From a virus, in the IMG/VR virus record IMGVR_UViG_3300006101_000044, positions 1 to 31,689 of that record: a stretch of 31,689 nucleotides of DNA. One strand, given 5' to 3'. The notes beneath the pieces were generated by a model, which was not told the origin of the DNA, made no database searches, and saw only the letters and a list, made by a program, of their open reading frames with translations. Shown piece by piece: positions 2,767 to 6,837 of this stretch (positions are counted from its first letter, which is position 1; every line of letters begins with the position of its first letter). A program made the translations under genes and the position numbers.

Positions 2767-3264
2767 ATGAAAACGCCAACACTTTTTCCTACGCAAGAAG
2801 AATTAAAGTCAAAATTTGATTATATTGACGGCAAACTTGTATGGAAAATTAAAACAAAAAGGGCCAATGTTGGCGATTTAGCTGGAACATTGCATCCTAA
2901 TGGTTATATGAGAACTGGATTAAATGGCCATTGTCATTTGAATCACAGATTAATTTTTATGTGGCATTATGGTTTTTTTCCTGAAATAGTTGACCACATT
3001 GATGGAAACAAATTAAACAATTCAATAGAAAATTTACGACCAGCAACACAAATTCAAAATCAACAAAATCAAAAAATACGCAAAGAAAACACATCAGGCT
3101 ATAAAAATGTTTCTTTGTGCCCACAAACAAAAAAATGGAAAGTTTCCATAAAATTAAATGGCAAAGATATAAGATTTGGTCGTTTTGACGATATTGAATT
3201 GGCAGATTTAGTAGCTCAAGAGGCTAGGGCTAAATATCATGGCGAATACGCAAGGAATCATTAA
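2767..3264 (+). CDS. free-standing HNH homing endonuclease with AP2-type DNA-binding domain
   Basis: A 165-residue protein. Residues 40-95 form an HNH_3-type nuclease core: LNHRLIFMWHYG (His60) followed by DHIDGNKLNNSIENLRPAT (His77, Asp79, Asn81/Asn89 as expected metal and active-site residues). Residues 109-160 resemble the AP2 DNA-binding fold (SGYKNVSLCPQTKKW, then FGRFDDIELADLVAQEA). This combination is common in free-standing phage homing endonucleases that cut intron-less or HEG-less alleles. It is wedged between two structural genes with 1 and 0 bases of spacing and is more AT-rich than its neighbours, consistent with later insertion. It might act in trans on the coat-gene introns, but nothing here links them directly. 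Confidence 0.88.
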   Translation: MKTPTLFPTQEELKSKFDYIDGKLVWKIKTKRANVGDLAGTLHPNGYMRTGLNGHCHLNHRLIFMWHYGFFPEIVDHIDGNKLNNSIENLRPATQIQNQQNQKIRKENTSGYKNVSLCPQTKKWKVSIKLNGKDIRFGRFDDIELADLVAQEARAKYHGEYARNH

Positions 3265-4239
3265 ATGGCCACTACCCCGATAGATATAATAACCTCATCA
3301 TTAAAAGACATTGGCGCATTGGCTGCTGGAGAAACTCCTACGCCTGAAGCTGCTCAAGATGCGTTCGTAATGATGCAACGCATGATTGACCAATGGTCTA
3401 ACGAGCAGATGATGGTGTTCTATAAGACAGAAATCATTTACACACTCACCCCAGGTCAAACCCAGTACACAATTGGCCCTGGCGGTGAGATCGGTGCAAC
3501 CTTTACAGGATCAATCACCAACAACATTCTCACAGTCACAGCCATCACCCAGGGCGCTATTAGCCTAGGAATGACCCTATCAGGCACAGGTGTCACAGCT
3601 GGGACTAAGATCACAGGATTCTTAACAGGCGCAGGCGGTAACGTTAACGAGTTGGGCACATATCAGCTCAACCTATCGCAAAACGTGGCTTCAACAACGA
3701 TTAACGCCTTTTATCAGCGCCCCCTCAGCATCAATTCGGCATTTGTACGCATCAACACCTCACAAAGTGGCGTACCCATCCTAAACGGCGGTCTAGACTA
3801 TCCCGTGGCCATTTTGAACGTAGAAGACTATGAAATGATTGGTCTTAAAACGTTAAACGGACCTTGGCCAAAAGCACTCTACTATCAACCAACCGAGACA
3901 CTAGGAAACATCTTTGTCTGGCCAAACCCAGCACAGGGTGAAATGCACATTTTTGCCGACACATTATTCAGCAAGTACACCACAATCAACGACACAATGC
4001 TACTGCCAGAAGGCTTTGAGAGCTGTCTAGAATGGTGTTTAGCTGAACGTTTAATGCCCCAGTATGGCAAAGCATCAGCCACGCAAATATCAATGATTAA
4101 CGCTTTTGCAGCGCAGGGCAAAAGCACGATCAAGCGCACAAACATGAAGCCTGTTCAGTCGGCTAGGTATTCTGATGCTTTGTTGATGAGCAGGGCAAAA
4201 GATGCCGGCTGGATCTTGTCCGGCGGCTTTTTTAGGTAA
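3265..4239 (+). CDS. P22 gp4-like head-tail adaptor/DNA stabilisation protein with inserted Ig-like domain
   Basis: A 324-residue protein. The N-terminus ([19 protein letters not shown], then [14 protein letters not shown]) and C-terminal half ([22 protein letters not shown]) match the gp4-type adaptor that closes the portal after packaging. P22 gp4 has 166 residues; much of the excess is an inserted beta domain at about residues 79-149 (3499-3711), between [10 protein letters not shown] and [13 protein letters not shown], which would be contiguous in an ordinary member. The same domain type appears twice in the gp10-like gene downstream. No clear RBS spacing because the HNH gene ends on the base before the ATG. 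Confidence 0.83.
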
Positions 4240-4240
4240 A

Positions 4241-4873
4241 ATGTTTTACATTTATCAACACCACAAAGCAGACACCAACGATATTTTTTACGTTGGGAAG
4301 GGTAAGGACAAGCGTCTGAACTCTAAAAGAGGTCGCAATCAATATTGGCACAATGTTGTTGATAAGCATGGATTTGTTGCAAAGGTAATTGCAGACAATC
4401 TTGACGAAGAATTAGCATTTTTGTGTGAGATGGAGGCCATTGATCTTTACAAAAGAATCGGCATCCAACTTGTAAACGCAACAAATGGTGGTGAAGGTGC
4501 TTCAGGTTACAAACATACTGATGAGCATCGTGAAAAAATGAAGAATAATCTGTATTGGAGTTTTGCTAAAGAAAATGGTTTTAAAGGCAAAACCCATTCA
4601 GAAGAACAAAGAGAAAAGTGGAAAGAAACTCGCAAAGGCACACCTAGCCCAAGAAAAGGTGTAACTTTATCTAACGAAACAAAGCAAAAAATAAGTCAAG
4701 CTAGAACAGGAATGATTGTTAAAGCTAGACGAGTTTTGACTGACGAACAAGTTAAACAAATTAGAATTGAGCTTAAAACTGAAAGAATGGCAGTTCTTGC
4801 TAGAAAATACAATGTTGGCGAGACAACCATTAGCAGAATTCGAAATAACGAACGTTATCAGGATGTCACATAA
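4241..4873 (+). CDS. free-standing GIY-YIG homing endonuclease with NUMOD repeats and C-terminal HTH
   Basis: Starts at ATG 4241, one base after the upstream stop; 210 residues. The N-terminal domain begins FYIYQHH and continues [11 protein letters not shown], the GIY and YIG strands of the nuclease, with acidic residues downstream (EMEAIDLYK). The middle holds NUMOD3-like modules ([45 protein letters not shown]) and the C-terminus a helix-turn-helix ([26 protein letters not shown]). This is the architecture of I-TevI-like and SegA-type enzymes. It sits between the gp4-like and gp10-like genes and overlaps the latter start by one base. The longer frame beginning at 4202 lies in the upstream gene and is not needed. 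Confidence 0.88.
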
Positions 4874-6837
4874 TGCCAGATTTTAACTTTGTCGGAGCAA
4901 GTTACACCGCACCTAGCATTTACCAAGATGCTAGTGAGTGTATTAATTTTGTTCCAGAAGTTGATCCTACGCTACCCCAAGGTTCAAGGGGTGTTGTGGC
5001 GCTATACCCAACGCCAGGCTTAACCACGCAAGTCGTACTACCTGCTGGCGCAGAAGTTAGGGGTATGCGAACACTCTCAGGCGCTAGTCAAATGATCGCA
5101 GTCTGTGGGGCTTATGTTTACCTTTTATCCAGCACTCTATCGCCTACTATTGTTGGCATCTTAAACAGCTCTACAGGGCGTGTAGGCATTTCTGACAATG
5201 GCTTGTATGCTTATATTGTCGATGGGTCTTATCGCTACTCATGGCGTATTACGACCCCTACAACGGCTATATTTACAGGGGTTATTTCTGGCACTACTTT
5301 GACTGTTTCTAATATCCAAAGTGGCACGATTTCTATTGGTCAGGTTTTGTTTGGTGTGGGGGTTTCACAAGAAACAATCATTACAGGCGGTTCTGGGACT
5401 TCTTGGACTGTTAACATTTCTCAAACAGTCAGTTCAACCTTGATGAACAGTTCTAATACCCAGAGTTTTACTGGAGTGATTACGACTGGATCAACCAATG
5501 CTAATTTGGCCACAACTGCTACTTTGTATTTAGGGCAGACGATTCAAGGTACTGGCGTTCCTTTTGATACGATCATTACGGCCATCGTAACGCCCTCTGG
5601 TGGTAATAATAATTACACTTTGTCCAGCAATACTGCGGTCGGTTCTGAGACCATGTATGCGCTTAACTTTACAGTTATGCCCTCAACTGACGGGGCTTTT
5701 AGCGGTGCTAATTCGGTTGATATTATTGACAACTACTTTGTTTACAATAGGCCATCTAGTCAACAGTTTGGTTCATCAGACGCTTTAAGCCCAATATCTC
5801 AGCAATTATCGTTTGGTTCTAAGGATGGATCACCCGATAATCTAGTGGCTTTGATTGTTGACCATCGTGAAGTTTATTTGATGGGTGAAGCCAGTTCAGA
5901 GGTTTGGGTCGATGCGGGATTGTTTCCGTTCCCGTTCCAAAGGATACCTGGCACATCTACCCAACAAGGTATTGTGGCTCAATTCAGCGTTTCTAGGCTA
6001 GGTGACAGTTTTGCTTACCTTTCTAGAAACAATCGAGGTCAAGGTCAGGTCATGCAAATGGTCGGCTATATACCTCAAAGAATCTCTACCCACGCTGTGG
6101 AGAACACACTAGCAAACCAGTACATTTCGGATGCGATAGCGTGGACATATCAGCTAGAAGGGCATGAAGTCTATGTATTATCGTTTCCTACTCTTAACAT
6201 CACTTGGTGTTATGACGTTACCACTAAGCTATGGCACAAGTGGCTTTATTGCACCAACCAGAACGAATACCAGAGACACAGAGGAAACTGTTGCGCCGTA
6301 TTCCAAGGTATGGTTCTTGTGGGTGATTACGCCAACGGAAAGATATATGAGTTGGACAAACTCAACTACACCGATGACGGCCAGAACATCAGACGCTTAA
6401 GGCGTGCGCCTCACCTTGTGGCTGATTTCCAACGTCAGTATTTTGAGGAATTGCAGATACAGTTTCAGCCTGGCGTGGGTTTTACGGGTTTATCTAAAAA
6501 TCAAAACATCTTTTTACAGACCCCTTATTACATTACACCAACTGGGGTTTTGATTATTCCAGCCAATCAGACAGTTGTTTTAGGCACTCAGGGGGCTATC
6601 AGCCAGTCTACTGAAACAACGCTACCACAAGCCATGTTGAGGTGGTCAGATGATGGTGGGAGTACCTGGAGTAATGAACATTGGACTACAATAGGGCAAA
6701 CAGGAAAATATCAAAATCGCGCCATTTGGAGGCGTTTGGGACAGGCTAGGGACAGGGTATTTGAGGTCGTTGTGACTGATCCTGTGAATGCGGTGATTGT
6801 TTCTGCAAATCTTAAGGGTAGTGGGGGTGAGAATTGA
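4873..6837 (+). CDS. P22 gp10-like packaged-DNA stabilisation/tail hub protein with two inserted Ig-like domains
   Basis: A 654-residue protein of the phage stabilisation (P22 gp10) family: N-terminal [18 protein letters not shown], the variable beta-propeller-like middle, and a C-terminal part with [12 protein letters not shown] and [15 protein letters not shown] typical of this family. P22 gp10 has about 470 residues; the surplus includes two tandem beta domains at about residues 133-194 and 198-263 (5269-5454 and 5464-5661), starting [15 protein letters not shown] and [15 protein letters not shown]. They resemble the insert in the gp4-like protein. gp4 and gp10 products contact each other beneath the portal, so matching decorations on both are notable. 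Confidence 0.85.

Follow-up and report, generated by a model that had tools for sequence, protein, structure and literature searches.

An inserted beta-rich domain occurring once in the gp4-like adaptor and twice in the gp10-like nozzle protein of a virus

Three copies of one domain in two neighbouring tail proteins

The window, i.e. the whole stretch of 31,689 nucleotides analysed here (IMG/VR record IMGVR_UViG_3300006101_000044, positions 1 to 31,689), encodes on its plus strand a gp4-like head-to-tail adaptor of the T7/SU10 type (3265..4239, 324 aa) and a gp10-like nozzle or head closure protein (4873..6837, 654 aa). In the adaptor, a beta-rich domain is located between helix-bundle segments. 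The protein was matched by phrog_12985 (E = 1.1e-38) and weakly by Pfam SU10_adaptor (E = 3.8e-5), a match that falls short of the Pfam cut-off. Foldseek analysis of its AlphaFold2 model (mean pLDDT 78.6) gave matches to the portal-tail adaptors of cyanophage A4, SU10, N4, T7, and others, and the model has the adaptor fold of a helix bundle plus a beta dock domain (9k09_d, E = 4.8e-7; also 7z47, 9lc0, and others). These matches to T7/SU10/N4-type adaptors bear out the gp4-like identity proposed in an earlier note on this DNA. The gp10-like identity held as well: the protein belongs to phrog_578 (head closure Hc3, E = 1.8e-98), and the insert-free gp10 family profile matched 9vyg (E = 5.6e-43), 8tvr (P22 gp10, E = 3.6e-17), 7eeq, and Sf6 gp8. 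In T7 and SU10, the adaptor and the nozzle are in mutual contact (PMC6702177, PMC9509320), which supports the view that the two proteins touch each other below the portal.

The window also codes for an HNH_3 endonuclease just upstream of gp4 (2767-3264) and, in the gp4-gp10 interval (4202-4873), for a NUMOD3, probably GIY-YIG, homing-type endonuclease. In 49 of 234 gene pairs, gp4 and gp10 were more than 400 bases apart; thus, homing-type endonuclease genes may come and go at this site.

A domain of approximately 65-70 aa is present once in the adaptor and twice, in tandem, in the nozzle protein, always on the plus strand. Copy 1 (3490..3714, residues 76-150 of the gp4-like protein) lies between YTIGPGG and YQRPLSIN and reached a profile score of 95.9 bits. 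Copy 2 (5263..5457, 80.1 bits) starts after RITTPT in the gp10-like protein and is abutted by copy 3 (5458..5667, 86.3 bits), after which the gp10-like core restarts at FTVMPS (5668). The three related segments that had been assigned to 3499-3711, 5269-5454, and 5464-5661 are therefore present, with slightly wider profile borders. Pairwise BLASTP analysis gave 42% identity for copies 1 and 2 (E = 1e-10), 38% for copies 1 and 3 (E = 3e-7), and 31% for copies 2 and 3 (E = 2e-5). All three copies matched one common stretch of PHROGs 21413 and 38233, copy 3 weakly. With copy 1 as query, the three copies and no fourth one were found in the whole window. The motif FxG...LTV...GV suggested previously is incomplete in copy 3, which is degenerate in this respect and has no LTV. 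The GC content did not mark the inserts as foreign DNA (gp4: 0.49 in the insert versus 0.47 in the core; gp10: 0.42 versus 0.45-0.47). A second variable stretch of gp10 (6490-6615, LSKNQNIF...STETT), unrelated to the domain, is also found in MW202520 and is missing from MW202674 and others.

Structure prediction yielded a confident, compact all-beta domain. The AlphaFold2 model of the tandem copies 2 and 3 is all beta with a mean pLDDT of 89.5, and copy 1 reached values of about 87-95 over most of residues 78-149 with dips near 121-130. Among PDB entries, the only confident one-domain Foldseek match of the tandem model was chain 1 of 8eci, the Arthrobacter phage Bridgette particle (probability 0.99, 24% identity, rmsd 3.4 over 68 columns); it has to be taken as moderate because its E-value was 0.16. 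This chain was not among the matches of domain profiles A3 and A8 to PDB sequences, where only chance matches such as OmpK36 were obtained. Bridgette has dimeric capsid cement proteins (PMC13033339), and we infer that chain 1 is such a protein. Among predicted viral proteins, the best structural match was an uncultured phage's protein resembling P22 gp10, followed by fibre, capsid, and lectin-like proteins. Collagen-repeat proteins of the giant virus Indivirus (BFVD A0A1V0SCQ2 and A0A1V0SDM6) also matched the tandem model.

The earlier note had described the domain as Ig-like. Its all-beta nature and its promiscuity among virion proteins would suit a true Ig-like domain, but none of the three segments gave any Pfam match above the cut-off, be it to an Ig-clan profile or another, the closest being a sub-threshold match of copy 3 to Kre9_KNH (E = 0.039), a family described as Ig-like. 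In agreement, Foldseek matches of the tandem model to Fab structures had a probability of 0.10 or less. The predicted fold is thus probably not Ig-like, and we consider true Ig-like domains very unlikely here.

Insertion, copy number, and spread

Relatives of both proteins without the inserts align straight across the insertion sites, indicating true insertions. In Rhodoferax phage P26218, MW202557, EBPR podovirus 1, and Vibrio phage FGH, the YTIG of the gp4 core is followed almost directly by RP; the core is contiguous in these four plain family members, as had been expected. Copy 1 is missing from relatives L007, L009, L010, and L011. The 135-aa tandem of gp10 is missing in the same four phages and in MW202674, MW202520, and L081. 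In the gp10-like alignments, L004, L005, L006, L007, L009, and L011 lack copies 2 and 3. In MW202674, STNT is directly joined to FTTLP where the window has the 135 extra residues. The adaptor insert occurs without the nozzle pair in MW202674, MW202520, and L081, so the pair was either gained later or lost. A diverged insert is found in gp4 of Xanthomonas phage PBR31 (weak profile match, probability 49).

One copy in the adaptor and two in the nozzle (1+2) were found in 207 of the 234 loci having both genes, a figure that is no unbiased census because these loci overlap and were chosen by similarity. Twelve related records of 32-36 kb had exactly 1+2 copies and none elsewhere, except for one marginal extra match. 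In the 1+3 loci that were inspected, the third match was the far half of a second copy split by another module; a numerical check with fixed cut-offs, however, flagged only 6 of 19 as split. The 67 kb contig IMGVR_UViG_3300025723_000032 holds two related gp4/gp10 regions (L012 and L043) whose likeness to the window is 100% and 82%, and represents either a join of two related genomes or an assembly chimera.

Collections of phage and bacterial contigs were scanned with single-copy queries. The domain was found in the neck terminator (PF23961) and the neighbouring DUF3383 sheath protein, further in cement, minor capsid, capsid, baseplate, Laminin-G/lectin-like, and fibre proteins of phages, and in single PilY1-type and T9SS-type proteins of bacteria. 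It therefore occurs in unrelated virion proteins. In contractile-tail phages or prophages, the terminator and the adjacent sheath protein both carry the domain (L249, 2462-5467; L199, 1228-3942; L255, 3797-6332; L209, 1556-4307). Copies may also be nested within a copy, as in gp10 of L248 (3509-5803) and gp4 of L165 (922-2349). Foreign modules are nested in copy 3 of L059 (4966-7077), L069, L080, and L089, and at two levels in copy 3 of L072 (2066-4093). A tblastn search of phage records with the copy from L017 gave no match. Pfam and NCBIfam have no model for the domain itself, and full-text searches of the open-licence literature found no paper naming it. The domain is real, common, and without a name in the libraries searched; it is a promiscuous, widespread, mobile decoration module.

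Both inserts are under purifying selection and evolve slightly faster than the cores. Omega was 0.129 in the gp4 insert versus 0.083 in the core, and 0.122 versus 0.096 in gp10 (343 and 341 pairs). There was no sign of diversifying selection on the inserts, with no pair in either set above 1. Once covariation of the cores was taken into account, none was observed between the adaptor insert and the nozzle inserts (partial correlations of -0.008 and -0.028); the two nozzle copies covary with each other (gp10a-gp10b, 0.385).

Origin and possible role of the inserts

The preferred reading, which we hold to be somewhat better than an even bet, is that the inserts are three copies of a mobile, exposed decoration domain that were recruited separately and give weak contacts. 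Phages would place this compact beta domain of ~65-70 aa into loops on the surface of their virion proteins. In the podovirus lineage studied here, the adaptor carries one copy, by position in its fibre-dock-like beta-rich region, and the nozzle carries a tandem pair, probably in one of its first propeller blades. The gp10 insert begins after about 130 core residues, and its placement at blade 2 is a reading of the sequence. With one copy in the adaptor and a tandem in the nozzle, these domains would cover the tail exterior directly beneath the portal, their exposure and number being judged from homologues. If the usual 12:6 stoichiometry holds, there would be 12 adaptor and 12 nozzle domains, a count that is suggestive only. 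Most likely, each recruitment drew independently on a stock of such domains, and the copies most likely serve as decoration modules whose weak contacts are made with glycans of the host surface or with adjacent parts of the virion. Surface Ig-like domains of phage Douge bind host glycans (PMC13033339), which serves as an analogy only for the domain described here. Purifying selection of this strength is at least as compatible with a stabilising role as with attachment to a receptor that keeps changing.

With regard to origin, the earlier note had proposed duplication between the two genes. A direct move from gp4 to gp10, or the reverse, followed by tandem doubling would be compatible with either function of the inserts. 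The genes are neighbours, copies 1 and 2 share 42% identity, and a single clade of all gp4, gp10a, and gp10b copies was not rejected by an AU test (p = 0.31). However, in a domain tree of 143 copies and 69 columns, which had few firm forks, the gp4, gp10a, and gp10b copies fell into groups of their own, and the gp4 group was joined by many copies from other hosts, albeit at weak forks. The extra gp4 copies of L165, L169, and L315 were placed among the other-host copies. Moreover, the domain is common elsewhere, so that a local source is unnecessary. The tree and the AU test neither bear out duplication between genes nor exclude it; separate recruitment appears likelier than copying from gp4 to gp10 on the basis of these sequence comparisons, and we rate a direct move as rather unlikely.

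As to function, the inserts may instead be fibre-docking or tail-assembly elements, an alternative of appreciable but clearly lower probability than the preferred one. The adaptor copy would then extend the fibre dock, and the nozzle pair would take the place of the nozzle or dock domains found in T7 and SU10; together they would hold a fibre or brace the joint. The T7 fibre is held between the adaptor dock and the nozzle dock (PMC6702177), and SU10 has its nozzle domains inserted between blades 2 and 3 of the propeller (PMC9509320), near the gp10 insert as positioned above. The strong purifying selection and the fixed 1+2 pattern are also in line with such a role. It is at odds, however, with the adaptor insert occurring without the nozzle pair in three relatives, with the adaptor and nozzle inserts not covarying beyond their cores, and with the presence of the domain in proteins of the capsid and the sheath, neither of which is known to dock fibres. 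Near-neutral passengers tolerated in exposed loops would account for the nesting and the differing numbers of copies that some relatives show, but omega values of 0.12-0.13 and a single copy number in most loci make this improbable. We assign only a slim chance to the idea that the adaptor domains (12) and nozzle domains (6 x 2 = 12) form matched interlocking rings of 12 that bridge the 12-to-6 symmetry step, i.e. an added collar made from one mobile domain; if it were true, the terminator/sheath pairs would provide a comparable example.

The finding defines a common virion domain that has neither a Pfam nor an NCBIfam model. For annotators, it explains the cross-matches among adaptors, nozzles, sheaths, and fibres of unrelated phages. 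It also offers a testable case of tail surfaces that are built up by module insertion and nesting. The sharing of the domain by neighbouring virion proteins, a pattern seen twice (adaptor/nozzle and terminator/sheath), makes a structure worthwhile.

Comparison with known systems

Phages are known to decorate their virion proteins with exposed domains, and the domain described here is a new case of this habit. PHROGs 21413 and 38233 (tail fibre protein) contain it; they comprise large multi-domain proteins, and there is no entry for the domain alone. The likeness to chain 1 of 8eci is limited to the structural match of one domain, and the Bridgette protein is a separate chain of 124 residues, in contrast to the inserted domain here. 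Ig-like virion domains, such as those on the major capsid (MCP) and tail tube (TTP) proteins of mycobacteriophage Douge (PMC13033339), are likewise small beta domains found on several unrelated virion proteins. Unlike these, the domain in the window showed no significant Ig profile or fold match; the tail tube domain of Douge is C-terminal (PMC13033339), whereas the present domain is inserted in loops and self-nested.

The closest systems for the two host proteins are T7 and SU10. Their adaptors share the fold of the gp4-like protein, and the adaptor dock, which is present in T7 and SU10 and not in P22 gp4 (PMC9509320, PMC6702177), likewise carries an extra domain. Their nozzles bear extra domains inserted near propeller blades 2-3 (PMC9509320, PMC6702177), and the gp10-like protein probably likewise carries its extra domains on the propeller. 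The extra nozzle domains of T7 and SU10 differ from the one in the window: those of SU10 are described as Ig-like and rearrange upon genome release, and that of T7 is described as a tip barrel.
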